NCBI GenBank assembly: GCA_030323885.1
Contig: CM059198.1
Location: 11,508,462-11,572,461 of the forward strand
Source of the DNA: Branchipolynoe longqiensis
Taxonomy: Eukaryota; Annelida; Polychaeta; Phyllodocida; Polynoidae
Reading direction: 5' to 3'
DNA: 64,000 nt
Below are positions 635-58,401 of this stretch, one piece after another. The notes beneath the pieces were generated by a model. It was not told where the DNA came from. It saw nothing but the letters and a program-made list of their open reading frames with translations, and ran no database searches. The stretch's first letter is position 1, and each line of letters opens with the position of its first letter. A program made the position numbers and the translations under genes.

Positions 635-1303
635 AGTGAGTGTGTAGTGTAAGTGTATTTAATACAATATATAACTTACCACCAGTCAAATATGTTCACG
701 CTATTGATATCCTTCTTGTAGTGGGTTATATAGGAATTTCAGCGTGTTGTGAAAAGCGCGATAGATATACCTGTACAGTAGCAGAAATGTGAAAAGTCTC
801 TCCCGTATATATTAATACGCTCTAATTTACTTCAGGGTTAAAGAAAATTACCGAAAGTAGTCCGAAATGAAAATAATTCTAGCGGCGACACGAGGCTTCA
901 GACATGCGACATTACAGTAATATCGATGCCAAAGACTAATGCCTCCCTCAAGAACTGACACTTTCGTCGGAAAACTCATCAACAAAGCAATTTAATTTAA
1001 TTTAGTCCCTGCATAAAGCAAAAAGATTGGAGAATCAATAGAATAAACTAACTCATCCACTCCAACAACCCACCAGTCGTAGTCAATAGAAAAGTCCTTT
1101 TTTTTTTTAGAATTTAGAATAACATATCAAATTAAATGAAATAAAAATACTACGTATATAATATATATTCTCTAAAAAGAATTGTAGTTCTAGCCCTAAC
1201 ATCAAAATTACAACACCACCTACGTTCAATTAACCAGCCGTCAACTAACAATTTAATTAAGAAATATAACCTTTATAGTATTAAATAACAAATAAAATGA
1301 AAA

Positions 1304-1972
1304 TGAGGAGTTCAGGCGCAAAACCAAGTAAGTCCATTTTCATGAAAAGTGAGATAACCAATGGAGACACCACTTCTTAGTCCCTATTACCCAATGAGCA
1401 AATCAGTTTTGTTTCAAAACCTGGTAAGTCCTATGTTAAATTGGCCTTAAAATAGGGTTTGGTTGCAAAACCTTGTAAGCGCCATTCGAGTTTGTCTGCA
1501 AAACCACGTCAGATGTAGCTGGCCAATCAGCTACGCGTGTCAGGTCACATTTTTTTTTGTTTTTTTTTGTTTTTGCCTCGGGTGATTTGTCGACGTTTAT
1601 GATGGAAACCTATGTTGCAATTGATGAGGATAGTGGTGATGATGAGTAAGCTTATGGTGGAAATTGTGTGTTCTTTGATTCTGCAAGATTTCCATAAGAT
1701 TAGTCTTTGACAATGGACTTACATGGTTTTGCAAACAAACCGAAAGTGGACTTACTTGGTTTTGCAGAAAAATCAATAAAAGTTGATTAATTAATGAGTT
1801 TTGGAATAAAGGTTCATTTATCACTTTCATAGTATTTTGTTCATTGCCCATAACCCTATAATACAAAGAAAAGTGGAATTACTGAGAATGATATTTATGG
1901 GCATATACAAATCTTGATTTTAAAACAAAAGAGGTCGCGTGGACTTACTTGGTTTTGCGCCTGAACTCCTCA
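1304..1972. mobile_element. 669-bp MITE with 33-bp perfect terminal inverted repeats
   Basis: Bases 1304-1336 (beginning TGAGGAGTTCAGGCGCAAAA) are the exact reverse complement of 1940-1972. The core motif GGACTTACTTGGTTTTGC recurs inside the element near both ends in both orientations (around 1405-1425, 1460-1480, 1495-1510, 1717-1735 and 1745-1765). Repeated subterminal motifs are typical of transposase-binding sites. There is no coding capacity. I do not see an unambiguous target-site duplication (flanks are A-rich), so the superfamily is open. A shorter relative is at 62870-63107. Confidence 0.75.
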
Positions 1973-2029
1973 AATGCTCCCGAAACACACCAAAAGTATC
2001 AAATACAGTCAATACAGTCACTACTAACC

Positions 2030-2064
2030 AATGTTGTGTAGGTTCAAATCCTGGTAGTTTCAAC
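2030..2064 (-). promoter_or_regulatory. Possible primer-binding site or tRNA-like relic next to the LTR
   Basis: Immediately inside the LTR boundary the plus strand reads GGTTCAAATCC followed by TGGTAGTTTCAACA, which resembles the T arm and 3' acceptor end of a tRNA (ending ACA rather than CCA). On the minus strand this would be where a primer-binding site belongs. The tRNA-like match runs past 18 nt, which is longer than usual. A fragment of a tRNA-derived SINE is the alternative, and I cannot name the tRNA. Confidence 0.3.
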
Positions 2065-2577
2065 ATGTCGTGGTCGCTATTTTATAAAGTCGCTGGCAGG
2101 TGGTGTGAGTGGTGTGGACAAGCCAAGAGAAATCAATACAGGTAATGAAGGAAAGTAGGTAAAGAGTGAAAGTAGGAGAGTGAGACTCCTTGATTTATTA
2201 TCTTATATAGGTTTCTAGAATCCAAGATGGCAGTGGTCACATGGGTTCATCCACCAATCAGAGTTCAATCTGTTGTATACAAAGCCTTGTTATGCTGGCT
2301 ACAGTCCCTTGTAGTGGCCAGTGATCCATAAATAACACCATGGGGGGAGGGGGTATGTGAGGTGACTCCTCCAAAGACTATCTAAGAAGTGACACTCCTC
2401 CAAAGACTATTTTACTATACAATTTCTATACCTAATGAGTAATAGTTTACCAATTCCACATATCCCTCATATGCCTTTGGATTTTATATATCACCATTTA
2501 CCATTATATAGACAAGTTGCAATTTATTATAATAGTTTCACATATATCCTCATGCCATTAGATCGGAAAATTTTACA
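2065..2577 (-). mobile_element. 5' LTR of a minus-strand LTR retrotransposon
   Basis: Read on the minus strand, the block begins TGTAAAATTTTCCGAT, closely matching the start of the 516-bp solo LTR at 38342 (TGTAAAATATTCCGAT), and its length (about 513 bp) is almost the same. Both contain a TATA-like box next to AATAAA (here CTATATAAGATAATAAA), then a pyrimidine-rich tract with CTACTTTCACTCTTTA and CTGTATTGATTTC. The outer edge at 2577 abuts CCAT inside a 148-bp satellite unit, as expected for insertion into that array. The inner edge (2065, TGTCGTGG) is placed by comparison and may be off by some bases. Confidence 0.6.
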
Positions 2578-3232
2578 CCATGACAAGCGAACGATTCTGC
2601 TATTGAAATATGATTTTGATATTGCACCAGAACATTGATAAAGGCCCAATTGATGATTTTGAAGAAAATTAGTGACATTGAAATATTGTCGATATAGCCT
2701 CGAAACGATGACCATGACAAACTAATGATTCTTCACCGAATAGGTGAAATTGAAATATGATTTTGATATTGCACCAGAACATTGCTAAAGGTCCTAGTTG
2801 ATGATTTTAAAGAAAATTAGTGACATTGAAATATTGTCGATATAGGCTCGAAACGATGACCATGACAAACGAACGATTCTGCACCGAATAGGTCAAATTG
2901 AAATATGATTTTGATATTGCACCAGAACATTGCTAAAGGTCCTAGTTGATGAATTTGAAGAAAATTAGTGACATTGAAATATTGACAATATAGCCTCGAA
3001 ATGATGACCATGACAAACAAACGATTCTGCACCGAATAGGAGAAATTGAAATATGATTTTGATATTGGACCAGAACATTGCTAAAGGTGCTAGTTGATGA
3101 ATTTGAAGAAAATTAGTGACATTGAAATATTGACGATATAGCCTCGAAACAATGACCATGACAAACGAACGATTCTGGACCGAATAGGTGAAATTGAAAT
3201 ATGATTTTGATATTGCACAAGAACATTGCTAA

Positions 3233-3508
3233 TGCCTAGTACACACCTCCCGTATAGGATTCGCGCACTAAAACTCGCGATTCGACCCAACCCGCTTAAA
3301 ACTGAAAACGGGCTGATTCGTTTTTCGAATCGCGAATCGCAATCGTAAACGGCTGCTTTTAGCACTAAAAACTGAGTTTTATGTGCGAATCGCAATCGCT
3401 AGGTGTGCGTGGGGAGTGCACACCAAGCGATTTTTGTGGGCGAAACGGGCAGTTTTCGATCGTATATGGGAGGTGTGCGCACACAAACGGTAGGTGTGTA
3501 CCGGGCAT
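3233..3508. mobile_element. 276-bp MITE with TAA target duplication, inside the satellite
   Basis: The satellite consensus GCTAAAGGTCC is split by a 276-bp block with TAA on both sides (3230-3232 and 3509-3511). The ends are inverted (TGCCTAGTACACACCTCCCG and the complement of GGTAGGTGTGTACCGGGCAT). Internally it holds mirrored GAATCGCGATTCG-type motifs. A 3-bp TWA duplication and short TIRs fit PIF/Harbinger-type nonautonomous elements. No coding capacity. Confidence 0.7.
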
Positions 3509-4543
3509 TAAGGTCCTAGTTGATGATTTTGGAGAAAATTAGTGACATTAAAATATTGTCGATATAGCCTCGAAACGATGATGATGACAAATGAATGATT
3601 CTGCACCGAATAGGTGAAATTGAAATATGATTTTGATATTGCACCAGTACATTGCTAAAGGTCCTAGTTGATGTTTTTGAAGAAAATTAGTGACATTGAA
3701 ATATTGTTGATATAGCTTCGAAACGGTGACCATGACAAACAAACGATTCTGCACCGAATAGGTGAAATTGAAATATGATTTTGATATTGCACCAGAACAT
3801 TGCTAAAAGGCCTATTTGATGATTTTGAAGAAAATTAGTGACATTGAAATATTGTTGATATAGCTTCGAAATGATGACCATGAAAAACGAACGATTTAGC
3901 ACCGAATAGGTCAAATTGAAATATGATTTTGATGTTGCACCAGAACATTGCTAACGGTCCTAGTTGATGTTTTTGAAGAAAATTAGTGACATTGAAATAT
4001 TGTTGATATAGCTTCGAAACGGTGACCATGAACGATTCTGCACCGAAATAGGTGAAATTGAAATATGATTTTGATATTGCACCAGAACATGCTAAAGGTC
4101 CTAGTTGATGATTTTGAAGAAAATTAGTGACATTGAAATATTGTCGATATAGTTTCGAAACAATGACAATGGAAAACGAACGATTCTGCACCAAATAGGT
4201 GAAATTGAAATATGATCTTGATATTGCACCAGAACATTGCTAAAGGTCCTAGTTGATGGTTTTGAAGAAAATTAGTGACATTGAAATATTGTCGATATAG
4301 CCACGAAACGATGACCATGACAAACGAACGATTCTGCACTGAATAGGTGAAATTGAAATATGATTTTGATATTGGACCAGAACATTGCTAAAGGTCCTAG
4401 TTGATGATATTGAAGAAAATTAATGACATTGAAATATTGTCGATATAACCTCGAAACGATGACCATGACAAACAAACGATTCTGCACCAAATAGGTGAAA
4501 TTGAAATATGATTTTGATATTGCACCAGAACATTGCTAAAGGT

Positions 4544-5249
4544 AAATCCACTTGTGTTGGGTGCCTGGCCATGCCGGCATCCAGGGAAACAAACAAGCTG
4601 ATTGGGCTGCGAAGGAGGCTCTGAACTATGATGTTGAGCCGTGTCTGATACCCCACTCTGATCTGAAACCACTAATAGGCACCCACATCAAATCCAAATG
4701 GCAATATGAGTGGGATGAAAACATTAATAAACTTAAAAAATTGAACCAGCTGTGGGAAAACCACCTCATTCTCATGTGGGGGGTCGGCGACCCCATACGG
4801 TCCTTCGCCGCTGCCGTATTGGCCACTTGTGGCTAACACATGTTTTCATGCTCAAGGGGGACCCTCCCCCTGAATGTATTGGATGTCAGCCCCCACTGAC
4901 TGTCAAGCACATTTTACTAAACTTTATTGATTTTATGGCACTGCACCAACAATTTTACACTGCAAACAGCATGCATGACCTTTTTACCAAAGTTAAACAA
5001 TAAGACATTTTAGGTTTTTTGAGCGCAGCTTGTCTGTACCACCTCATATAGTTCATTAAAACAATTTGATTAATTAATTCTTTGATTTACCTTTTAAAAA
5101 TTCATAAGTGTCTATTGACACTTAATTGCTTGTATGCTTTTACATTATATGTAAAGGCGATGGTTGAATAAAAACAAAAAATTCTCGCCATGAATATGGC
5201 CTATGCTGCTGACACATCGTAAAGAAACCACCAATCAATCAATCAATCA
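4544..5249 (+). pseudogene. 3' end of RNase H LINE (family A), with target duplication
   Basis: The piece is flanked by TAAAGGT (4537-4543 and 5250-5256), a 7-bp target duplication in the satellite, and ends in (AATC)n, the 3' tail of this LINE. It begins inside the RNase H domain (CWVPGHAGIQGNKQADWAA), continues with the C-terminal Cys/His segment (PPPECIGCQPPLTVKHILL, 4866-4930 region) and a 3' UTR of about 250 bp. Frames shift near 4750-4850, so it is dead. In intact elements this region is the C-terminus of ORF2: RNase H removes RNA from the cDNA hybrid. 5' truncation is normal for LINE insertion. Confidence 0.85.
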
Positions 5250-7476: not shown

Positions 7477-7795
7477 GATGGCCGAATGAGTTGGAGCGTC
7501 CGTCTCCCGTGCTGGGAGATCATGAGCTCATGGGTTCGAACCTTGGTCGAGTCAAACCAATGACTTGAAAATTGGTGCTTGTCACTTCCTACCAAGCGCT
7601 TGGCATTATTATGTCAGGATAATGTGACTGAGTGGCATACCAGGTCATGGTGCCGGTGGCCTGGTTTCCCAGTGAGACAGCACTATAAAGTCACCATGAG
7701 TGCGCACTGTCACAAGTCGGTACCCGTCCTGATATGACCTTAGATGTTGCTAGGATGTAAAACAACAACAAACAAACAAACAAACTAGATTTGAG
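7477..7795 (+). mobile_element. SINE-1 (tRNA-derived, tail i), full-length reference copy
   Basis: The head carries an A-box-like TGGCCGAATGAG and a B box GGGTTCGAACC about 45 bp later, as expected of an internal RNA polymerase III promoter. The body has GAGTCAAACCAATGACTT, CATTATTATGTCAGGATAATG and GTGACTGAGTGG. The 3' domain includes GTGCGCACTGTCACAAGTCG and CCGTCCTGATATGACC and ends in (AAAC)n. The same family recurs at least fifteen times in this window, giving strong internal support. Confidence 0.85.
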
Positions 7796-7842
7796 TTTTG
7801 AGATATTTTGAGTGCAAGCCTGGTACACCATAGACTAAATTG

Positions 7843-7978
7843 GCGCATAATTCCGAATTGTGGTTGATTCGGGGGAAGCCGGAGACCCACCACGCACCAA
7901 GCAGATTGCACGAACACTACCCCTGACCTCCCCCCGCATCGGCATTCGGATTCGGTTCCTCACGCCGTATTCATTTCA
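7843..7978 (+). repeat. Split direct repeat A1
   Basis: 136 bp from GCGCATAATTCCGAATTGTG to CCGTATTCATTTCA, repeated with few changes as A2 at 8691-8826. Confidence 0.85.
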
Positions 7979-8221
7979 AATCCAAGGATACAGCATAATT
8001 CCTCCCCTGGCACCCACTTACCATCACCCATGTAAAAACAGAGCACGCAAGTGAAAAACATCAAAATGCAGCACACACGACAAACGTTACGACCTGTAGA
8101 TAGGCCCCCGAAGCGAGCCATACGGTGACAGAGGCCGGAGCAGGAGGGGGAGCAGCCCAACGGGCCCTCTCAAAATGGCGGCGAAGACATGTCCCTGACG
8201 CACCGGCGGGCCGCGAAACAC

Positions 8222-8503
8222 AAACAGCCCACAGCCGCCACCGGAAACCCAGAAACGCCAGGGGGAAATGATGATCCGCATGCAGTGGCCATAGCAGATG
8301 CCAAGTCCTACATCTGAAAGAAAGGTATTTACTCCAAATATCTCTTTCCATACGACCTAATCGAACGGGGGGATGAGGGCAAATTGGTGAAGAAAGGCAA
8401 AGCCACACGCGAGGAAGACACGCTGGGTCTCAAATGCCTTGAGACCCAGCATGGCTTCCCTCCCACGCCCTGGCAGCCCTCTCGGCCCAAAAGGAAGCCA
8501 TAG
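8222..8503 (+). pseudogene. Gag relic of the miniature Ngaro-like element
   Basis: A frame reading KKGIYSKYLFPYDLIERG and DEGKLVKKGKATREE before a stop at 8501-8503 aligns with the gag-like ORF at 54877-55692 (RRGIPPGYVFPHHLIEHG, PEGKAVKRGEVTLEE). A stop codon lies just upstream of KKGIY, so the relic is broken. The homology, with about half the residues identical over some 50 positions by eye, shows that this short element once had an autonomous relative of the 55-kb type. Upstream to about 8060 the sequence is GC-rich and probably more of the same ORF, but I could not align it. Confidence 0.7.
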
Positions 8504-8573
8504 CACAGGACAACTGCACACTTCCATGGAACCTCGTACTCCGAGGAAATCTTCACTCGGATCGCCGACGGCT

Positions 8574-8690
8574 GGAGTGTCCGGCGCCTACAGAGGCCCC
8601 GATCGACATCGATGAGCTGGACTGAGTCCCCTCACTGTCAATAAACATGTATTTACTCCCATGCAGTCTCCGGCTTCCTTCCTCGAATCA
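8574..8690 (+). repeat. Split direct repeat B1
   Basis: Begins GGAGTGTCCGGCGCCTACAG. Holds the end of an ORF (PIDIDELD then TGA), then CAATAAACATG and CAGTCTCCGGCTTCCTTC. Repeated as B2 at 8886-9017. The acidic C-terminal codons lying inside the repeat imply that the last ORF of the parent element ended in B1. Confidence 0.8.
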
Positions 8691-8826
8691 GCGCATAATT
8701 CCGAATTGTGGTTGATTCGGGGGAAGCCGGAGACCCACCATGCACCAATCGGATTGGATGAATACTACCCCTGACCTCTCCCCGCATCGGCATTCGGATT
8801 CGGTTCCTCACGCCGTATTCATTTCA
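8691..8826 (+). repeat. Split direct repeat A2
   Basis: Second copy of the 136-bp A repeat, fused directly to B1. Confidence 0.85.
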
Positions 8827-8885
8827 CCACGCTCACCCACCCTCTTTTTAAGGACTACTTCATAGGGGTCGGCTCCGGCGGCCTC

Positions 8886-9017
8886 GGAGTGTCCGGCGCC
8901 TATGGAGGCCCCGATCGACATCGACGAGCTGGACTGAGCCCCCCTTGTGTAGCCCTCCCTCGCTGTCAATAAACATGTCTTTACTCTGACGCAGTCTCCG
9001 GCTTCCTTCGTCGAATC
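8886..9017 (+). repeat. Split direct repeat B2
   Basis: Second copy of B, with a short insertion (around TTGTGTAGCCCTCCC) compared with B1. The element ends near TTCGTCGAATC. Confidence 0.8.
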
Positions 9018-9083: not shown

Positions 9084-9690
9084 AGCAGCACAGGTTTTAC
9101 AGAGGCTAGTAAATGGATCAGATCAAAGTGTGAGTGGGACCATCTTTGTTTGCAATGTAAGAGCAAAAATAATGTCGACGCTTGTAGACGCGAAGAGACC
9201 GTTGTTGCACGTATGCGAATTGGACATAGCTATTTGACTCATAGTTACCTTTTTAAAGCAGAAGACCAGCCAGAATGCATACCATGTGGAGTGCCTCTGA
9301 CTGTGAAACATATTTTGATTGAATGCATTGACTTTGCAAATGTTCGAGCACAGTATTTTAATGTAGCAAGTATGAAATGTTTATTTGACACTGTTAGTAC
9401 TGCCTTAGTTTTATCGTTTTTAAAGCACATTGGACTGTTTAACCGGTTTTAAGACATTTCGATGGCATTGTATAGCCCTTAGCGCGCTGGTATGCCGTTA
9501 AGCATTTATTCATTCATTCATTCATTCATTCATTCATTCATTTGACGCTTGTCCAAACAAGAAGTTTACACTGAGTCAGGATGCCGAGAGATTAGTGTCG
9601 GGGGAGAGTGATGATAGTGATTGTGTCACCGGTCGCGGGGCGCATACAGGTGGCTCTTCTAAGGGATTAGGAAGTGGGGGTGGGGGGGGT
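9084..9690 (+). pseudogene. Cys-rich, zinc-finger-like ORF split by a LINE insertion
   Basis: After a plausible acceptor-like GGTTTTACAG near 9102, a frame reads KWIRSKCEWDHLCLQCKSK up to the LINE at 9186-9543. Beyond the LINE the frame carries on through KKFTLSQDAERLVSG and an acidic SDDSD patch to a Gly run and a stop near 9690. Counting only one copy of the 9-bp target duplication keeps the two halves in the same frame. The CxxC/His pattern suggests a zinc-binding module like the finger of DIRS Gag proteins or another nuclear factor. I do not recognise the family. It could be a host exon or an older element's ORF. Confidence 0.45.
9186..9543 (+). mobile_element. 3' fragment of RNase H LINE (family B), with 9-bp target duplication
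   Basis: Flanked by GACGCTTGT at 9177-9185 and 9544-9552. It begins in the C-terminal segment (EETVVARMRIGHSYLTHSYL), contains the Cys/His module (CIPCGVPLTVKHILIECIDF), a stop near 9450, a short 3' UTR and an (ATTC)n tail. Nearly identical to 12580-12910. Recent, 5'-truncated insertion. Confidence 0.9.
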
Positions 9691-11680: not shown

Positions 11681-12912
11681 GAATGCATTGTTGAAGCAGA
11701 GGAACCTCCACTTGTGCTGAGAAGAGAAAAGCTCGCTCTACAGTATGCATCCAAGATCGCAGCAAATCCCAGCAACCCTGCCTATGACTGCATTTTCAAC
11801 CCAAGCAATGAAACACTCTTTGCCAATAAACCCAAGGCCAATCCAACTTTTGGTATATGTATTAAGGAATCATTAGAAACACTCGAGTTTGATGTAGATA
11901 ACATTGCAAAATTCCAATATCCAGACACACCACCTTGGACATACGCTGTCAATGTGAACTTGGCAATCTCTGAAGCAAGGAAAGACTCAACTGACCCTCT
12001 GATCTACAACAGTAGGTTCAGGGAGGTTAAAGACATACATTCTGATCATAAGTTCATCTACACAGATGGTTCTTACATGGATGACAAGGCTGCAGCGGCA
12101 GCTGTCATGGGCACGCACACCTTCTCAGAGCAATTACCAAAGGGTGCTTCGATATATTCAGCAGAGCTTGATGCTGTATTCTTAGCAATGGACCATGTAG
12201 AAACCTCTTCCCATAGAAAATTTGTGATATGTTCGGATTCAAAATCATGCCTACAAGCTATTCAGAGCAAGGATTGGAAGAACCCTCTGATCCGCAAGAT
12301 TTTAGAAAGGCTACATTCTTTATGTTCAGGACTTCACAAAACTGTGCTTTTTTATTGGGTGCCGAATCATGTTGGCATTCGAGGAAATGAGGCTGCAGAC
12401 ATGGCTGCCGAAGACAAATGCATTACACCTCTTCCCATTTCTCACACGGACCTCAAAAGGCACATCAGTGTACTCACAAGGAAAAAGTGGCAATTACAAT
12501 GGGATGAAGCTGTCATGAACAAGCTTCATGCAATTCAGCCCACCCTTGGCAAATTTTCAGGTGCTTGTCATAGAAATAGACGCGAAGAGACCATTGTTGC
12601 ACATATGCGAATTGGACATAGCTATTTGACTCATAGTTACCTTTTTAAAGCAGAAGACCAGCCAGAATGAATACCATGTGGAGTGCCTCTGACTGTGAAA
12701 CATATTTTGATTGAATGTATTGACTTTGCAAATGTTCGAGCACAGTATTTTTTATTGTAGCAAGTATGAAATGTTTATTTGACACTGTTAGTACTGCCTC
12801 AGTTTTATCGTTTTTAAAACACATTGGACTGTTTAACCGGTTTTAAGACATTTTGATGGCATTGCATAGCCCTTAGTGTGCTGATATGCCGTTAAGCATT
12901 TATTCATTCACT
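11681..12912 (+). pseudogene. RNase H LINE (family B), ORF2 C-terminal half
   Basis: A 318-codon frame (11714-12670) starts at the post-RT segment (LRREKLALQYASKIAANPS) and contains RNase H motifs YTDGSY, YSAELDAVFLA, CSDSKSCL and WVPNHVGIRGNEAADMAA, in which His and Asp are retained. A premature TGA at 12668-12670 replaces the codon seen as Cys in the 9.3-kb copy; beyond it the frame continues into the Cys/His module, with another small indel near 12750. The 3' end has the same UTR and short ATTC tail (to about 12912). Recently inserted to judge from its near identity to 9186-9543, but inactive. Confidence 0.85.
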
Positions 12913-39510: not shown

Positions 39511-39531
39511 ATTATAACATATATATATATA

Positions 39532-39617
39532 TATAAAGTTCGGCTACGGCAAGGAGAGAGACAAGAGGCGGTGATGGGTAGGAGACTTTATTTGCGTCAG
39601 GGCAGCAAAATATAGGC
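39532..39617 (-). repeat. Split direct repeat B2 of the Ngaro-like element
   Basis: 86 bp, TATAAAGTTCGGCTACGGCA to TATAGGC; twin at 39842-39927. Confidence 0.85.
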
Positions 39618-39841
39618 TACCGGTAAAAGATTTTTTTTTTCAAAGGCAGGAGAGAGACTGACAGCCCGGGCAAGTAGTGCCAGGAACCCACAGGTGGTGG
39701 CGCTGGGGTAGGCCAGGACCGGGGCAAATCCGGGCAAGTCAGCGATTGGACAATATAATAACAGAAGCATATCGTAATAATATTAAGATAACCAAGCGAG
39801 AGCTCCGCCCCTTTTATATACGTATAATACATTATACTCTC
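39618..39841 (-). repeat. A2 region of the Ngaro-like element
   Basis: The 224 bp between the B repeats. By analogy it should match an A1 copy at the missing 5' end; that copy is not in the visible sequence. Confidence 0.55.
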
Positions 39842-39927
39842 TATAAAGTTGGGCTACGGCAAGGAGAGAGACAAGAGGCGGTGATGGGTAGGAGACATTA
39901 TTTGCGTCAGGGCAGCAAAATATAGGC
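39842..39927 (-). repeat. Split direct repeat B1 of the Ngaro-like element
   Basis: Lies directly after the recombinase stop. Contains AATAAT/AATAAA-like signals on the minus strand (ACGCAAATAATGTC here, ACGCAAATAAAGTC in B2). Confidence 0.85.
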
Positions 39928-39938
39928 CAAGGAGACGC

Positions 39939-41018
39939 CTAAGCGTCTCCCCCCAACCCAACGCCAGCCTGACTCGAGCATAGCGCCACCCCAACCCTCA
40001 TGTCGTTCACAATCCTTGTGCCGAGCGGAGTCTTGAGATATGAATAGACAGTTTCGGACGCCCAGTCACCCCGGACCTTCAGCTCCTCTATGGTGGCTCC
40101 GCACATGGAAAGGAAGGTGCAACCCCCCCTCCTAAGTGAGTGGGACGAGAGGGAGGCGGCATCGAGCCCAGCCCTGGCTGAAATTTTTTTTAGGGTCTCC
40201 TGATAGGCCGAGTAAGGAAAGGGGGCGGAACTCCCGCCGCCGCATGGAATGCGGAAGGCTGCCTGAGATGGTTTGGCGGCAATCTGGCTGAAATGCAGCT
40301 CGGTCCAGTAAACCGCACACATGTCAGTCTCAAGAGACCTAGATATCGGGATCTCGAGGACCCTTTCGTTAAACTGGATCGTCTTGGAGCGACGGACAGT
40401 CAAAATCAGCCCCCAGTCATAAAACTGGAAGTCCGATCTCAATAAGGAGGAATCCGACAAGGTGACCTGGGACTTATGCAACAGCCCTCGGAATGAGCAG
40501 AGGACTGCTGCGCGCCAGGCGACGTGGCCGGGGTTATTAGTTAACAAGGCGAAGATCTTGCGAAGCATATGGGGAAGGAGAGGCATAGCGCGCCTCGGGA
40601 TATCCGACTTAGCTCTACGAATACCTTTGAGCGTAGAAGAAAGGACAAAGTTTGTGTAGTCTATAGGCCTTTCGCCGTTTTGCTTAAGGAAGTAATTTAG
40701 GCCACTTTGGTAGTTAATGACCGATACATACTTGAGGTCCCTTGCCAACCAGGCGGCATATAGGGCCACCTGCTCCTCGGAGCATGGTATGGGGGACCTA
40801 GAAGAATGGAAGAGATCAGCATATCTTAAATATTTCTTGATCTGCGTGGCCCTCGCTATTGTAGAGTTCTGAGCGTATGCTTGATGCTGGTACTGCTGCT
40901 GCTCGGCTCTCAGGGCTGCCCTCACTGAAAGAGACGAGCGATCGGTCAAAAGTGTCGCTGCAACAGAGCATTCTGGCACCATCGACACTCCTGATTCTAG
41001 CGGCACTATCCTTGTCAC
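39939..41018 (-). CDS. Tyrosine recombinase (integrase) of the Ngaro-like element
   Basis: 359 codons. The N-terminal 75-160 region (KYLRYADLFHSSRSPIPCSE, VINYQSGLNYFLKQ) fits a SAM-like core-binding domain, and the rest is the catalytic domain. Visible catalytic elements are Lys in RRSKTIQF, the HxxR box HSLRRGG at about 293-296, Trp in GDWAS at about 319, and the Tyr in VYSYLKTP at about 327. The first catalytic Arg, normally in an LLRKS-type motif, reads LLHKSQV (His), so the enzyme may be inactive. It would integrate a circular double-stranded cDNA into host DNA without target duplication. It overlaps the RT-RNase H ORF by about 200 bp in another frame, which is usual for this group. The start could be internal. 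Confidence 0.85.
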   Translation of the reverse strand: MTRIVPLESGVSMVPECSVAATLLTDRSSLSVRAALRAEQQQYQHQAYAQNSTIARATQIKKYLRYADLFHSSRSPIPCSEEQVALYAAWLARDLKYVSVINYQSGLNYFLKQNGERPIDYTNFVLSSTLKGIRRAKSDIPRRAMPLLPHMLRKIFALLTNNPGHVAWRAAVLCSFRGLLHKSQVTLSDSSLLRSDFQFYDWGLILTVRRSKTIQFNERVLEIPISRSLETDMCAVYWTELHFSQIAAKPSQAAFRIPCGGGSSAPFPYSAYQETLKKISARAGLDAASLSSHSLRRGGCTFLSMCGATIEELKVRGDWASETVYSYLKTPLGTRIVNDMRVGVALCSSQAGVGLGGDA

Positions 41019-42088
41019 ACAGTCTACTTAAGGCATCACATACTACATTCACAGCACTACGTATATAAACAGAAGTAAAGGTAAAATTGTATTTAACCGA
41101 GAACCAAAATATTCTGCGCAAGAAGTGCATGATTTCGGCACTCCTAGACCTGCCAGTATTAAGGGCTGCCTGCACAACAGAGCTATCGGTGACGAAAATG
41201 ACCGCAGTATCGCCCCAGCCCAAACTCCAACGGACGCAGGATGCGTAGACCGCCCACATCTCCTGCACGTTGATGTGGGCGGTCCAGACATCCTCCGGAG
41301 GACGGAAGTGGTGATGACCAACGTAATCGTCAAGGATGTCTTCCGTCGAGTCTGTGTATGCACCGACAGTCCAATCGCTGCCATGCAGGGCACTGAAGCC
41401 CCACTTGGAAGAGTCGCTGTAACAGGATATAACTGGGGCAAATTTACCGAGAATCTTGGCTTTCCCGTTAAAGTTACTTGCAAAATTCAACCACCAGTCG
41501 AGGTCTTCCCTAACTCCAGTGCCTAGCCTCGTTCTATGGAAAAGTTGCTTGAGTTTAGACATGAGATCATAGAACCGCCTAGAGAAGGTCCGCCCGCCGC
41601 GGACGACCTTGGCACAGTGAGCGAGCAACCCGCCCACCTGCTCCAGCTCCTTTCTGCTGGCCTTCTTGCGCCCGCGTAGTTTGCGGAGGATCTCTAATGT
41701 TCTCTCTAATTTATCCGGAGGAAGGCTAAGCTCGAGGCGTACCGAATCTATGAATATGCCAAGGAACCTAACCTTGGTCTCGACACCACTGACCTTCTTG
41801 AAGTTAACAAAAAACCCCAGTCTTCTCAAGATATGGATGAGGGTTCTCTGAGCGCCCTGGACGTCCGAACGCGTCCCACCGACTAGACAGAAGTCATCAA
41901 GGTAGTTTACGACTCTGGCCAAGCCTTCGCGAACACCGCATCTCACGATGAAGTCCGAAATCTTGGAAAAAATAAAGGGGCTCGATGACAGGCCCATGCT
42001 CAACCGATTATCCAGAAAGTAATCGAAGTTCTCATCGCCATGGCGAAGGCCTTGACGCTGGCGGTCATCAGGGTGGATGGGGACTGCA
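40816..42088 (-). CDS. Reverse transcriptase-RNase H of the Ngaro-like element, 5' end missing
   Basis: The frame is open from the gap edge at 42088 to a stop at 40816 (about 424 codons). Motifs in order: VPIHPDDRQRQGLRHG near the edge, RLSMGLSSSPFIFSKI, the catalytic box VVNYLDDFCLVGG, thumb-like RFLGIFIDSVRLELSLPP, then RNase H with YSDSSKWGFSAL, INVQEMWAVYAS, VTDSSVVQAALNTG and VCDALSR (D-E-D-D). It makes cDNA from the element RNA and removes the RNA strand. RT motifs before the palm lie in the gap. No stop or frameshift is visible in the part present. The tail after RNase H is about 65 residues long, with no methyltransferase. Confidence 0.88.
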
Positions 42089-42588
42089 NNNNNNNNNNNN
42101 NNNNNNNNNNNNNNNNNNNNNNNNNNNNNNNNNNNNNNNNNNNNNNNNNNNNNNNNNNNNNNNNNNNNNNNNNNNNNNNNNNNNNNNNNNNNNNNNNNNN
42201 NNNNNNNNNNNNNNNNNNNNNNNNNNNNNNNNNNNNNNNNNNNNNNNNNNNNNNNNNNNNNNNNNNNNNNNNNNNNNNNNNNNNNNNNNNNNNNNNNNNN
42301 NNNNNNNNNNNNNNNNNNNNNNNNNNNNNNNNNNNNNNNNNNNNNNNNNNNNNNNNNNNNNNNNNNNNNNNNNNNNNNNNNNNNNNNNNNNNNNNNNNNN
42401 NNNNNNNNNNNNNNNNNNNNNNNNNNNNNNNNNNNNNNNNNNNNNNNNNNNNNNNNNNNNNNNNNNNNNNNNNNNNNNNNNNNNNNNNNNNNNNNNNNNN
42501 NNNNNNNNNNNNNNNNNNNNNNNNNNNNNNNNNNNNNNNNNNNNNNNNNNNNNNNNNNNNNNNNNNNNNNNNNNNNNNNNNNNNNNNN
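42089..42588. other. Scaffold gap, 500 N
   Basis: Exactly 500 N, so a placeholder of unknown true size. The Ngaro-like RT frame runs into its left edge and does not reappear on the right. Confidence 0.99.
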
Positions 42589-54534: not shown

Positions 54535-54876
54535 AACAGCCCCCCGCCCCCTGCTCCTCCCTCCTTATAAGCTGCTTCCCAGCCTTCCCTCTCCACTCCG
54601 CCTCCTCGCCCTGCCAGACACACTTCACGACCAATTTTATTTTGGCTCGCCTCCTGCTGCCTCCTGCCACGGTGCCTCCACACCTCCACGCCTCCACGAC
54701 CAGCCTATCGCCGGCCTACGCCAGTCATGCCACACACATGAGGCCGACGCGCCACCCGCACATCCAGGAGAGGAACCGCCACGCCGCAGTCCTCCACAGC
54801 CGATTCCGCCTCCACGATATCGGCATCCCCCTCCCCCTGGCCTGCTGCCAGGGAGGAGGCCCCGGATCGGGCTCCG
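54535..54876 (+). promoter_or_regulatory. Intergenic region between divergent DIRS-like ORFs
   Basis: GC-rich sequence with one TATA-like word (CTTATAAGC at 54565-54573) followed by pyrimidine-rich text. It could serve as the leader of the plus-strand element, whose first ORF starts at 54877. No split repeat could be found here. Confidence 0.3.
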
Positions 54877-55870
54877 ATGGCCGACAACCGCATCGACGCC
54901 AACTCCCGTGCCCTGGAGCGCCTCACCGGACTCGTGCCCCGTGCCCCCGCCTCCATCGCCTCCCTCAGTACTGGAGCGCTGGCAGACTTCATGGAGGGGC
55001 TCACCAGCGACACCGCAGACACGGCCCCCGTGACACAACGGCAGTTGGCCGACCCGCCCCCGGTGGCCCCAGACGTCCACCCCATCTACCTCCAGAATAT
55101 GAGGGGAGGAGCCTCCACGACCCAGACGTTCGCCTCCCGGACCCTGGCGGTCCGCGAAATATTGAAGTCCGCCGAGTCGCAGAATACGGGACGTCGCAGA
55201 GGAATTCCCCCTGGCTACGTCTTCCCCCACCACCTCATCGAGCACGGCCCCGAGGGGAAGGCGGTCAAGAGGGGGGAAGTCACCCTCGAGGAATATAACC
55301 TAGCACTCAGGATGCTGGAGTCCCACCCCACCTTCCCCTCGGATTCCATCCCGGGCCTCCTCCATCACAATCTCACGGTCCAGCGCGACTGCGTCACGCA
55401 TCCTTGGCCCACGGTCCGGCGCTGGTCCGAGATGATCTTTGCGTGGGTGGCCGACGGGCGCCTCCCAGATGGATGGCTGGACCCCATCGCCATCAACGCA
55501 GTCCGGTTGTATGTCCTCACCGTCCCCATGACTTTCGTCTACCAGGGCCTCCACCTCACGATCCTCCACCGCCGCCCAGCCCGCGGCCATCCCCCAGCCA
55601 TGCGCGTCCCAGGCCGACAGGAGAACTCCCTACACCCAGGAAGCATACGGGGTCCCCTGCTCAGCCTGGAACCGATCTCCCACCTCGTGTGACCTCGCCC
55701 CCGCCGGTGAGGTGCACGGGGAGCAAGGCGCCCGGAGGCGCCACGCCTGCGCCTACTGCGCCAACGTCAGGCGCATCCTGACCATGCACAGTGAGGAGGT
55801 GTGCAATACAAAGCACCTCCGGGAACGCGCCTCCACCGCCCCGCGACCCCCCCGGCGGATTTTTAGTCCG
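54877..55870 (+). pseudogene. DIRS/Ngaro-like Gag (ORF1), one frameshift
   Basis: ATG at 54877 (MADNRIDANSRALERLTGLV) opens 271 codons. At about residues 105-150 is the segment shared with the 8.3-kb relic (GIPPGYVFPHHLIEHG, KRGEVTLEEYNLALRMLES), and at 180-230 a Trp-rich core (RRWSEMIFAWVADGRLPDGW). Near 55560-55640 the sensible frame shifts by one: YTQEAYGVPCSAWNRSPTSC, then HACAYCANVRR and HSEEVCNTKHL form a Cys/His finger of the sort that ends DIRS Gag proteins. The annotated frame instead stops at 55692. The region is very GC-rich, unlike the flanks. Gag would package element RNA. Confidence 0.7.
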
Positions 55871-56289
55871 TCGGCGGCGACCAGGGGGCCCCGCCCCCCC
55901 CCACCAGGCAGCCCGAGCACCACCCGCTCCTAGCAGCGACCTCCTCCCGAGGGGCTCCTCACATCCCCCGACCATCTGCCGCCATCACAGACGTCAGCGT
56001 CAGCCCTGTGATGTCACAAGCCGCTCCAATGGCCGCACCACCTCCAAACCGAGGGCGGCAATTAGCCGACCGGATGTCGTCCGCCCCGCCACCGTCGCCC
56101 GCACGCCGGCCTCTCGGGCCGACGTAACCCCAGGGGGACGTCCCACGCCACAGGCTCTGTCATCTCGCCCGGCCGGTTACGTAACCCTCCCGCACCCCAC
56201 CAGCACTGCTTCACCACCACCGCCGCTGCCAGCCCTGCCGGCCCTGCCACCCCTGCCGCCCCTACCTCCCCTGCCTTTCCCCGCCAGCA
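55871..56289 (+). other. Proline-rich linker region
   Basis: C-rich, open in more than one frame, without domain signatures. Probably the N-terminal linker of the RT ORF. Confidence 0.4.
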
Positions 56290-57437
56290 GTGTTCCACCA
56301 CCACCGCCCCCTCACGCCAGCCCGCCCTCCCCCCGCCCCCCCTCCCCCCCCCGCCACCGCCGGCGACGTCTTGCGCCCTCCCCCGGCGACACCGCCTACC
56401 TCCACCATCTTCCCGGCCTCCCGCACTCCCCCTGACCCCCCCCTCCCTCCCCCGGCCCTGGCCATACCGCCTGCCTCCACGACCCCCCCCGCCCGCATCC
56501 CCCTCCCCTCAGGTCTATACATCCCCGCCTGGCGCACCCGCCTCCACGACTACCACGCAGACCTCGTCGACCTCCTGGAGTTCGGCTTTTCTGCCAACTA
56601 CTCCGCCAGCACCCCCCCATCCCACATACACCAACCACCGTGGGACCCCAACTTCCACCCCCACCTCCGCGACTTTGTCACCACCGAGCTCGCTCATGGT
56701 TTCCTCGCCGATCCCTTCCACGCCAGCCCTTTCACTCCCTGGGCCCAGGTCTCCCCCATGATGACCCGCCCCAAGTCCGATACGGGAAAGAGGCGGGTCA
56801 TCGTCGACCTCCCATATCCCTCAGGCTGCAGCATCAATGCCGGCATCCCTAGGCACGAATTCCTAGGCAGGCCCCACACCTACAAGCTCCCCAGCGTGGC
56901 CGACGTGGGTCGCCGCCTCCTCGCAGAGGGCCCCGGAGCTTACACCAAGATGGCGGACATCTCCCGCGCCTACTGCCAGCTCCGGGCCGACCCCCTCTCC
57001 TGCCCTCTATATGGGATCACCCTCGATGGCGCGACCTACGTCGACCTCACCCACCCCTTTGGTTGCCGCTCCACCGGCACGGCCTGCGTCCGAATCACCT
57101 CCACAGTCGCCTGGGTCCTCCGCCACGAGGGCTTCCACGCCCTCGTCTATGTGGACGACTTTGTCGGGTGCAAGTGCACCTTCCTGAGGGCCCACCAGGC
57201 CTTCGACGCCTTCATCGCCCTCGTCGGGGCCCTTGGCCTGGAGGTCGCCCCCGGGAAGTGCCACCCCCCCCATGGTCCGCCTCACCTGTCTCGGCTTCAC
57301 CATAGACAGTGAGGCCCTCAGCCGCGCCCACCTCCCTGGGCCCTGCACCAAGGTGACTCGGACCGAGGTGGCGCACCTCGGGCTCACCTACCTCTACCCA
57401 GACCACGATGCCTTCCCCTACAATCCTGGCCTCTGAT
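56290..57437 (+). pseudogene. DIRS/Ngaro-like reverse transcriptase without RNase H
   Basis: A 340-codon frame (56290-57312) has a proline-rich N-terminus and then RT motifs: VSPMMTRPKSDTGKRRVIVD, SINAGIPRHEFLGR, AYTKMADISRAYCQLRADPL, HPFGCRSTGTACVRITS and the catalytic ALVYVDDFVGCK. After a C run at about 57265-57275 the thumb-like sequence VRLTCLGFTIDSEALSRAHL continues in another frame to a stop near 57436. Such elements normally carry RNase H next. Here only 20-odd bases separate the stop from the recombinase ORF and no RNase H motif is seen, so it was deleted or never present. High GC and homopolymer indels could in part be sequencing error. Confidence 0.75.
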
Positions 57438-57459
57438 TGTAGGATACTCCGAATCTGAG

Positions 57460-58401
57460 GTGGCAGCCGTGGACGGACTCAGGATCGCAGCCCTCGCCCT
57501 CACCCCTGCGACCTGGAGAAATCGTCGTCGCCAGGCCGAGGGCTATGTCTCCTTTGCCTCGGCCCATGGCCATGACCCTCTGGCCCCCACCACCTTTGAC
57601 GTCGCGGCCTATACGGCCGCCCTCTACGCATGCTCCATCGCCCTGGCCTCCATCCGCAACGCCCTATCCAGGGCTCGCTCATGGGTGGAGGCCGCCGGGG
57701 GCGCCCCTTCTACCTTCAGATCGCGCCTCGCCCAGGACGTCTGCCGTCCACGCACGTCCCGCGCCCTGCCCCACCTCTGCTGCCTCGCCACCTCGCCGCC
57801 GTCGTCACCCACCTCGACACCGCCAGACCCTCTGGCATCGTCCCTCGGGTACTACAGGATGCTGAGACAGTCCAGCCTCCTCTCTTCCCGCCCCGAGGGG
57901 TGGGGCGGCCCCCACACCATCACCCACGCCGACATGGTACCCGCCCCCGGGGGGGCTCCGCATCACCATCAGGAGCTCCAATACCATTGCGCTGCCCTCG
58001 GGGGCGGTTGCACTCTTCGCCCCCGCTACACCCGGATCCCGCCTCTGCCCCATCGCCGCATGGCAGGCTGCTGTGACTCTCGTCCCTGCCACCCCAGACA
58101 CCCCTGCCTTCATCCTGCCCTCGGGCCCCCCCCCCTCGACCCTCGGACCCTCACGGCAGTCCTGAGAGGCATGCTCCTCGCACTTGCCGTTCCCGCCCCC
58201 GACAGCTACACCCTCCATAGTTTGCATCAGGGTGCGGCGCAGGCCTGCCAGAGGGCGGGGGTCCTCCTCTGCCACATCATGGCCCAGGGCACCTGGACCT
58301 CGGGGGCGGTCCATGCATACCTCCCTCGCCTTGCCACCTCTGCTGCCCCTCGAGCCTTCTCCTCTGTTTTGGCGGAGGGCTCTTCGGGGCCCATCCCCTA
58401 A
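57460..58401 (+). pseudogene. DIRS/Ngaro-like tyrosine recombinase, frameshifted
   Basis: The N-terminal domain is well preserved (ALALTPATWRNRRRQAEGYV, then IRNALSRARSWVEAAGG). LGYYRMLRQSSLL gives the first catalytic Arg. C or G runs then shift the frame; the strand containing LRITIRSSNTIALPSG and LCPIAAWQAAVTLVPATP is in frame +2. The frame returns for SYTLHSLHQGAAQACQRAG, the HxxR box with the Arg changed to His, and GTWTSGAVHAYLPR with the candidate nucleophile Tyr. Loss of the box Arg and the frameshifts indicate a dead copy. Intact relatives integrate a circular cDNA. Confidence 0.7.

Follow-up and report, generated by a model that had tools for sequence, protein, structure and literature searches.

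The feature under study is a short repetitive element on the plus strand of the window, which is the whole 64,000-nucleotide stretch of Branchipolynoe longqiensis DNA that was analysed. The element extends from 7842 to 9017 (1176 bp), its limits being set from empty sites at other insertions. It consists, in this order, of a repeat A1, a 5' region, a gag fragment, a repeat B1 abutting a repeat A2, a spacer and a repeat B2. A1 (7842–7978) forms the left element end, with its first base taken from the empty sites, and A2 lies at 8690–8826. Both A repeats were 94.9% identical over 136 bp (7843–7978 versus 8691–8826, E = 4e-57). The alignment of B1 (8574–8689) with B2 (8866–9017), which forms the right element end, comprised 132 columns including a gap of 16 nt (8574–8689 versus 8886–9017, E = 4e-32). 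These matches are far beyond chance. The spacer between A2 and B2 (8827–8865) is conserved in relatives.

Since the B repeat is 152 bp long in relatives, as it is at 8866–9017, the B1 of the window copy lacks its first 20 bp; an internal stretch of 16 nt is missing as well. The Ngaro-type split direct repeats proposed in a preliminary description of this DNA are borne out by the A and B alignments and by longer relatives. Its "complete" plan A1-[gag relic]-B1-A2-B2 holds as a plan, but completeness was slightly overstated for a B1 with these two losses. Likewise, B1 and A2 do abut, yet this arrangement is usual for the family and not a special fusion.

Between A1 and B1 we found the 5' region together with the start of gag (7979–8285), a block match common to relatives, and a gag fragment (8287–8571) that carries stops and a small length change when compared with relatives. 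Two deletion joints, located at 8285–8287 and 8571–8574, bound this fragment. No reverse transcriptase (RT) or recombinase is left in the window copy, in line with its earlier reading as nonautonomous, and no intact protein encoded by it was found.

Just left of the element, at 7612–7793, lies a dispersed repeat which we read as SINE-like. Several other copies of it are present in the window at about 72–87%, and ARAGORN detected no tRNA in it. The stretches 9185–9516 and 12577–12910 are 96% identical to each other and are probably pieces of a non-LTR retrotransposon, because the latter coincides in part with the end of a frame that contains an RNase H domain.

A gag profile made from 24 public proteins matched the third element of the window with E = 1.7e-17 and the relic only with E = 0.08, and a Pfam match for the relic was not obtained. 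Its identity as gag therefore rests on a match to a gag ORF at 55195–55338, within another element of the window (24 of 48 residues, tblastx E = 7e-12), and on DNA matches to the gag of relatives. Two relatives of this ORF are present in a large collection of proteins, with E values of 2.1e-9 and 1.1e-4. The DNA of 8287–8571 matched gag DNA at 75–86% in seven of the first 30 loci. A perfect 12-bp hairpin within the fragment (8413–8459, -32.2 kcal/mol, a value reached by none of 200 shuffles) was considered as a possible signal and is treated as probably incidental, since weaker versions (-14.8 to -28.7 kcal/mol) were found in nine relatives.

Two other retroelements are located in the window. 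The second element (39513–42000, minus strand), like the 1.2-kb one a tyrosine-recombinase retroelement, carries RT/RNase H-like and recombinase frames followed by B1 (39823–39927), A2 (39618–39822) and B2 (39513–39617), with a run of N upstream at 42089–42588. Its Phage_integrase match was below the Pfam cut-off (E = 8.7e-4), its recombinase had 99 relatives in the protein collection, and no DNA match between this element and the 1.2-kb copy was found. The third is a relic on the plus strand (54742–58400) with gag, RT (RVT_1, E = 8.3e-5, below the cut-off) and a further frame that is read as a recombinase, though without a Pfam match; split repeats were not found in 54742–58400. The recombinase ORFs of both elements had no relatives in viral contigs.

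To place the 1.2-kb copy among its relatives the 1.85-Gb assembly (1914 contigs) was searched. A query of 1187 bases gave 2527 first-look candidates, the best 40 of which were scored, and 50 matches were listed, two of them being the window copy itself. Among the matches listed, none of the 48 other rows crossed the joints (query 448–450 or 734–737). The matches of relatives fell into three blocks (window 7838–8285, 8287–8571 and 8574–9017). In the loci L031, L032, L035, L037 and L038 the first two blocks were separated by 384–442 bp, and the third was situated kilobases beyond the second where the sequence reached it. L031 (5219 bp) and L032 (5292 bp) contained A1, the 5' region and gag, followed by B1-A2-spacer-B2. 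In total, the longer relatives measure about 5.2 kb and have the same ends as the window copy, and the split direct repeat plan A1-[ORFs]-B1-A2-B2 was seen in the window copy as well as in the longer L031, L032, L033, L034 and L039. Outside this genome, no match was obtained in plasmids, and a 27-base piece had none in viral contigs.

An RT domain (RVT_1) was detected in an ORF of L040 (E = 2.1e-8, 34.6 bits with a cut-off of 29.6) and, more weakly, in an ORF of L035 (22 bits). An ORF of L031 upstream of B1 contains HGLRRGAA, which we take to be a recombinase-like motif; the three recombinase-region ORFs of relatives that were scanned gave no Pfam match. The placement as Ngaro-type is derived from the repeat plan, the RT in relatives and integration without target-site duplication. 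No methyltransferase domain occurred among the matches of six scanned ORFs, which have broken frames and cover part of the sequence; lack of this domain distinguishes Ngaro elements from DIRS and PAT (PMC4157794). The same plan A1-[ORFs]-B1-A2-B2 is described for the Ngaro DIRS-53_XT of Xenopus tropicalis (PMC9210276) and for the Ngaros of Cafeteria (PMC8547959). Like the family found here they have a gag-like first ORF, which in the relatives here is followed by RT; the window copy differs from them in having a gag fragment only.

The mode of insertion could be read from empty sites. Out of 18 pairs of joined flanks, only those of L018 and L035 were spanned by a match that lay either elsewhere than at the locus or inside the array. 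A related repeat next to L022 aligned with the joined flanks of L018, a solo copy, at 76% and across the joint. In the empty site CTAAATT is directly followed by AGTCTG, and the filled site reads CTAAATT-[GGCGC...GAATC]-AGTCTG. A second empty site obeying the same rule was obtained for L035, which sits in an array of short tandem units. According to both sites the element runs from GGCGC to GAATC, the ATT belongs to the host and the target is not duplicated. The absence of a flanking duplication expected in the preliminary description is thereby confirmed for the family at two insertions, neither of which is the window copy, whose own joined flanks gave no spanning match. The ATT left of the window copy (7839–7841) is assigned to the host on the basis of the empty sites at these two other insertions.

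ATT preceded 22 of 25 left ends, with ATC at two and ATA at one. At the 28 right ends counted, which exclude the broken ones of L012 and L037, the next base was A in 22 cases, G in five and T in one. Immediately before A2, ATC was present in 15 of the 16 units with B1; L005 carried AAT, and L037, which was left out, ATT. A 3-bp sequence, often ATT, plays the same part in DIRS1-like elements (PMC3266345). The likeness includes integration at a short sequence by way of a circular junction, as proposed here, and without target duplication (PMC3266345). However, where this family has split direct repeats, DIRS1-like elements are described in that source as carrying inverted terminal repeats along with internal complementary regions.

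At the junction of B1 and A2 the end of B1 pairs with the start of A2 over 22 of 25 columns. The resulting palindrome (8655–8740) folded at -47.0 kcal/mol under RNA parameters, compared with a mean of -23.3 for shuffled sequences, none of 200 being as low. Across 20 junction rows from 17 distinct copies the values ranged from -33.6 to -47.0 kcal/mol, and L005 showed a matching change in both arms. We predict this palindrome to be a recombinase binding site. The junction of the second element of the window had no such excess (-20.2 versus -20.6 kcal/mol, 108 of 200 as low), and a strong palindrome is therefore not general.

Compared to L031, element positions 441–824 (about 384 bp) and 1119–4774 (about 3.66 kb) are missing from the window copy, the second loss extending into B1 and taking its first 20 bp. 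Two deletions, with joints near 8286 and 8572, have thus shaped the interval from A1 to B1, and little or no sequence identity is seen at these joints. The preliminary description had named many copies with the same internal deletion as the support to look for. A query over joint 1 returned 42 rows, one being the window copy, and none of the 41 others spanned the joint (best 40 of 68 candidates scored). For joint 2, 41 rows included the window copy and its own B2, and none of the remaining 39 spanned it (best 40 of 144 scored). Any copy with the same joint would be expected to score above those that end at it; since the best 40 were scored, weak siblings could be missed.

Private deletions were also found elsewhere in the family. 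A query over the deletion of L033 gave 40 rows, one being L033, and none of the other 39 spanned it (best 40 of 106 scored). Gaps relative to L031 were compared at twelve loci, two of which are the same place, and hence in eleven copies. In nine of these, including the window copy, the gaps differed from one another; the other two match only the initial part of L031 within the sequence compared. L050 (contig C14, 58024000 region) is another short copy, of 1449 bp and with a different deletion, in which A1, the 5' region and gag are followed by the second half of A2, the spacer and B2.

The repeats of the window copy differ at 7 of 136 positions for A1/A2 and at 10 of 116 for B1/B2. Six other copies with both repeat pairs diverged by 2.1–9.5% in A and 6.0–11.7% in B, two of them being measured over shortened stretches, and nine further copies with the B pair alone by 5.9–14.0%. 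Judged by this divergence, the window copy appears to be of ordinary age for the family.

Furthermore, nine complete solo copies of A-spacer-B (about 325 bp) with exact ends were found among 50 loci (L018, L022, L023, L028, L043, L044, L046, L047 and L048). L045 is one cut solo copy; L035 and L040 begin with A1, have no A2 and end in a single B. Recombination of A1 with A2 and of B1 with B2 would yield the solo and the single-B forms. A tree was calculated from 25 units, namely the nine solos and 16 units in which B1 precedes A2, after removal of three partial units and three duplicate loci. The solos were scattered among the 16 longer-copy units and needed nine changes, as would be expected of recombination products. 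A mobile minimal solo form was rejected by this tree, since a single solo clade had a p-AU of 2.4e-6, with two of 22 inner branches starred. These starred branches by themselves force at least three changes in the weakly resolved tree. The sampled loci are those that best match the window copy and do not amount to a census. In Cafeteria, solo AB repeats have already been described with the same reading (PMC8547959).

Taken together, the anatomy is as first described apart from small corrections, and the element is a broken, ordinary representative of a known kind. Very probably it is one member of an abundant Ngaro-type family, a single copy that has decayed and suffered internal deletions. 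Longer members of this family carry A1, gag, RT, a putative recombinase region and B1-A2-spacer-B2 over about 5.2 kb. Insertion after ATT without target duplication, shown at two sites, most likely takes place when a tyrosine recombinase recombines a circular junction of B and A with the target. In the window copy a gag segment of about 384 bp and a stretch of about 3.66 kb that begins in gag and ends inside B1 are missing, which leaves 1176 bp. No sign of its having multiplied was seen in the searches, and as they turned up no other copy sharing its losses, it does not resemble a new miniature-parasite family. Of the two outcomes named beforehand as speaking against such a parasite, the first was observed, the copy being alone with its deletions; the second was not, as the ends of full-length relatives are the same and not unrelated.

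We consider it somewhat probable that the element was full-length on insertion and that its middle disappeared afterwards, within the chromosome. Gaps that differ between copies and private joints fit such a piecemeal loss, and the stops in gag fit a long decay, but the joints themselves do not tell a later from an earlier deletion. That the deletions preceded insertion, for example by template switching during reverse transcription, with the short form carried in trans once, is a more doubtful possibility. The copy does retain the parts required by the split-repeat model (A1, B1 abutting A2, and B2) and its repeat divergence is ordinary; against this, no sibling was found among the rows scored and B1 itself is truncated. 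It is rather unlikely, if conceivable, that an RNA without enzymes, carrying A1, B1 joined to A2, and B2, underwent reverse transcription, circularisation and integration in trans on at least one occasion. A trans-mobilised family of MITE or SINE type, to which the window copy or the solo copies would belong, as suggested earlier from the short form, is very improbable and is rejected within the reach of the joint queries and the solo tree: nine solos are short copies with exact ends and the 2527 first-look candidates point to abundance, but the joints were present in the window copy only among the rows scored and the solos do not form one clade.

Degenerate derivatives that keep the Ngaro end repeats, as here, are known from Cafeteria burkhardae, where solo AB repeats and deleted "type 2b" elements lacking ORF1 were described (PMC8547959). 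However, "type 2b" is a group of copies (PMC8547959), whereas here the joints were found in a single copy among the rows scored, which has lost RT and recombinase as well. Titles and abstract openings of the papers listed in the literature searches, with most subscription papers outside this scope, described no miniature Ngaro family.

The window copy in itself matters little, because broken and internally deleted copies of retrotransposons are common. If it is true that the copy inserted already deleted, the repeats would suffice for carriage by the enzymes of another element. The family is useful for studies of insertion by split-direct-repeat elements, since its exact ends, its ATT target and its empty sites are clean enough.
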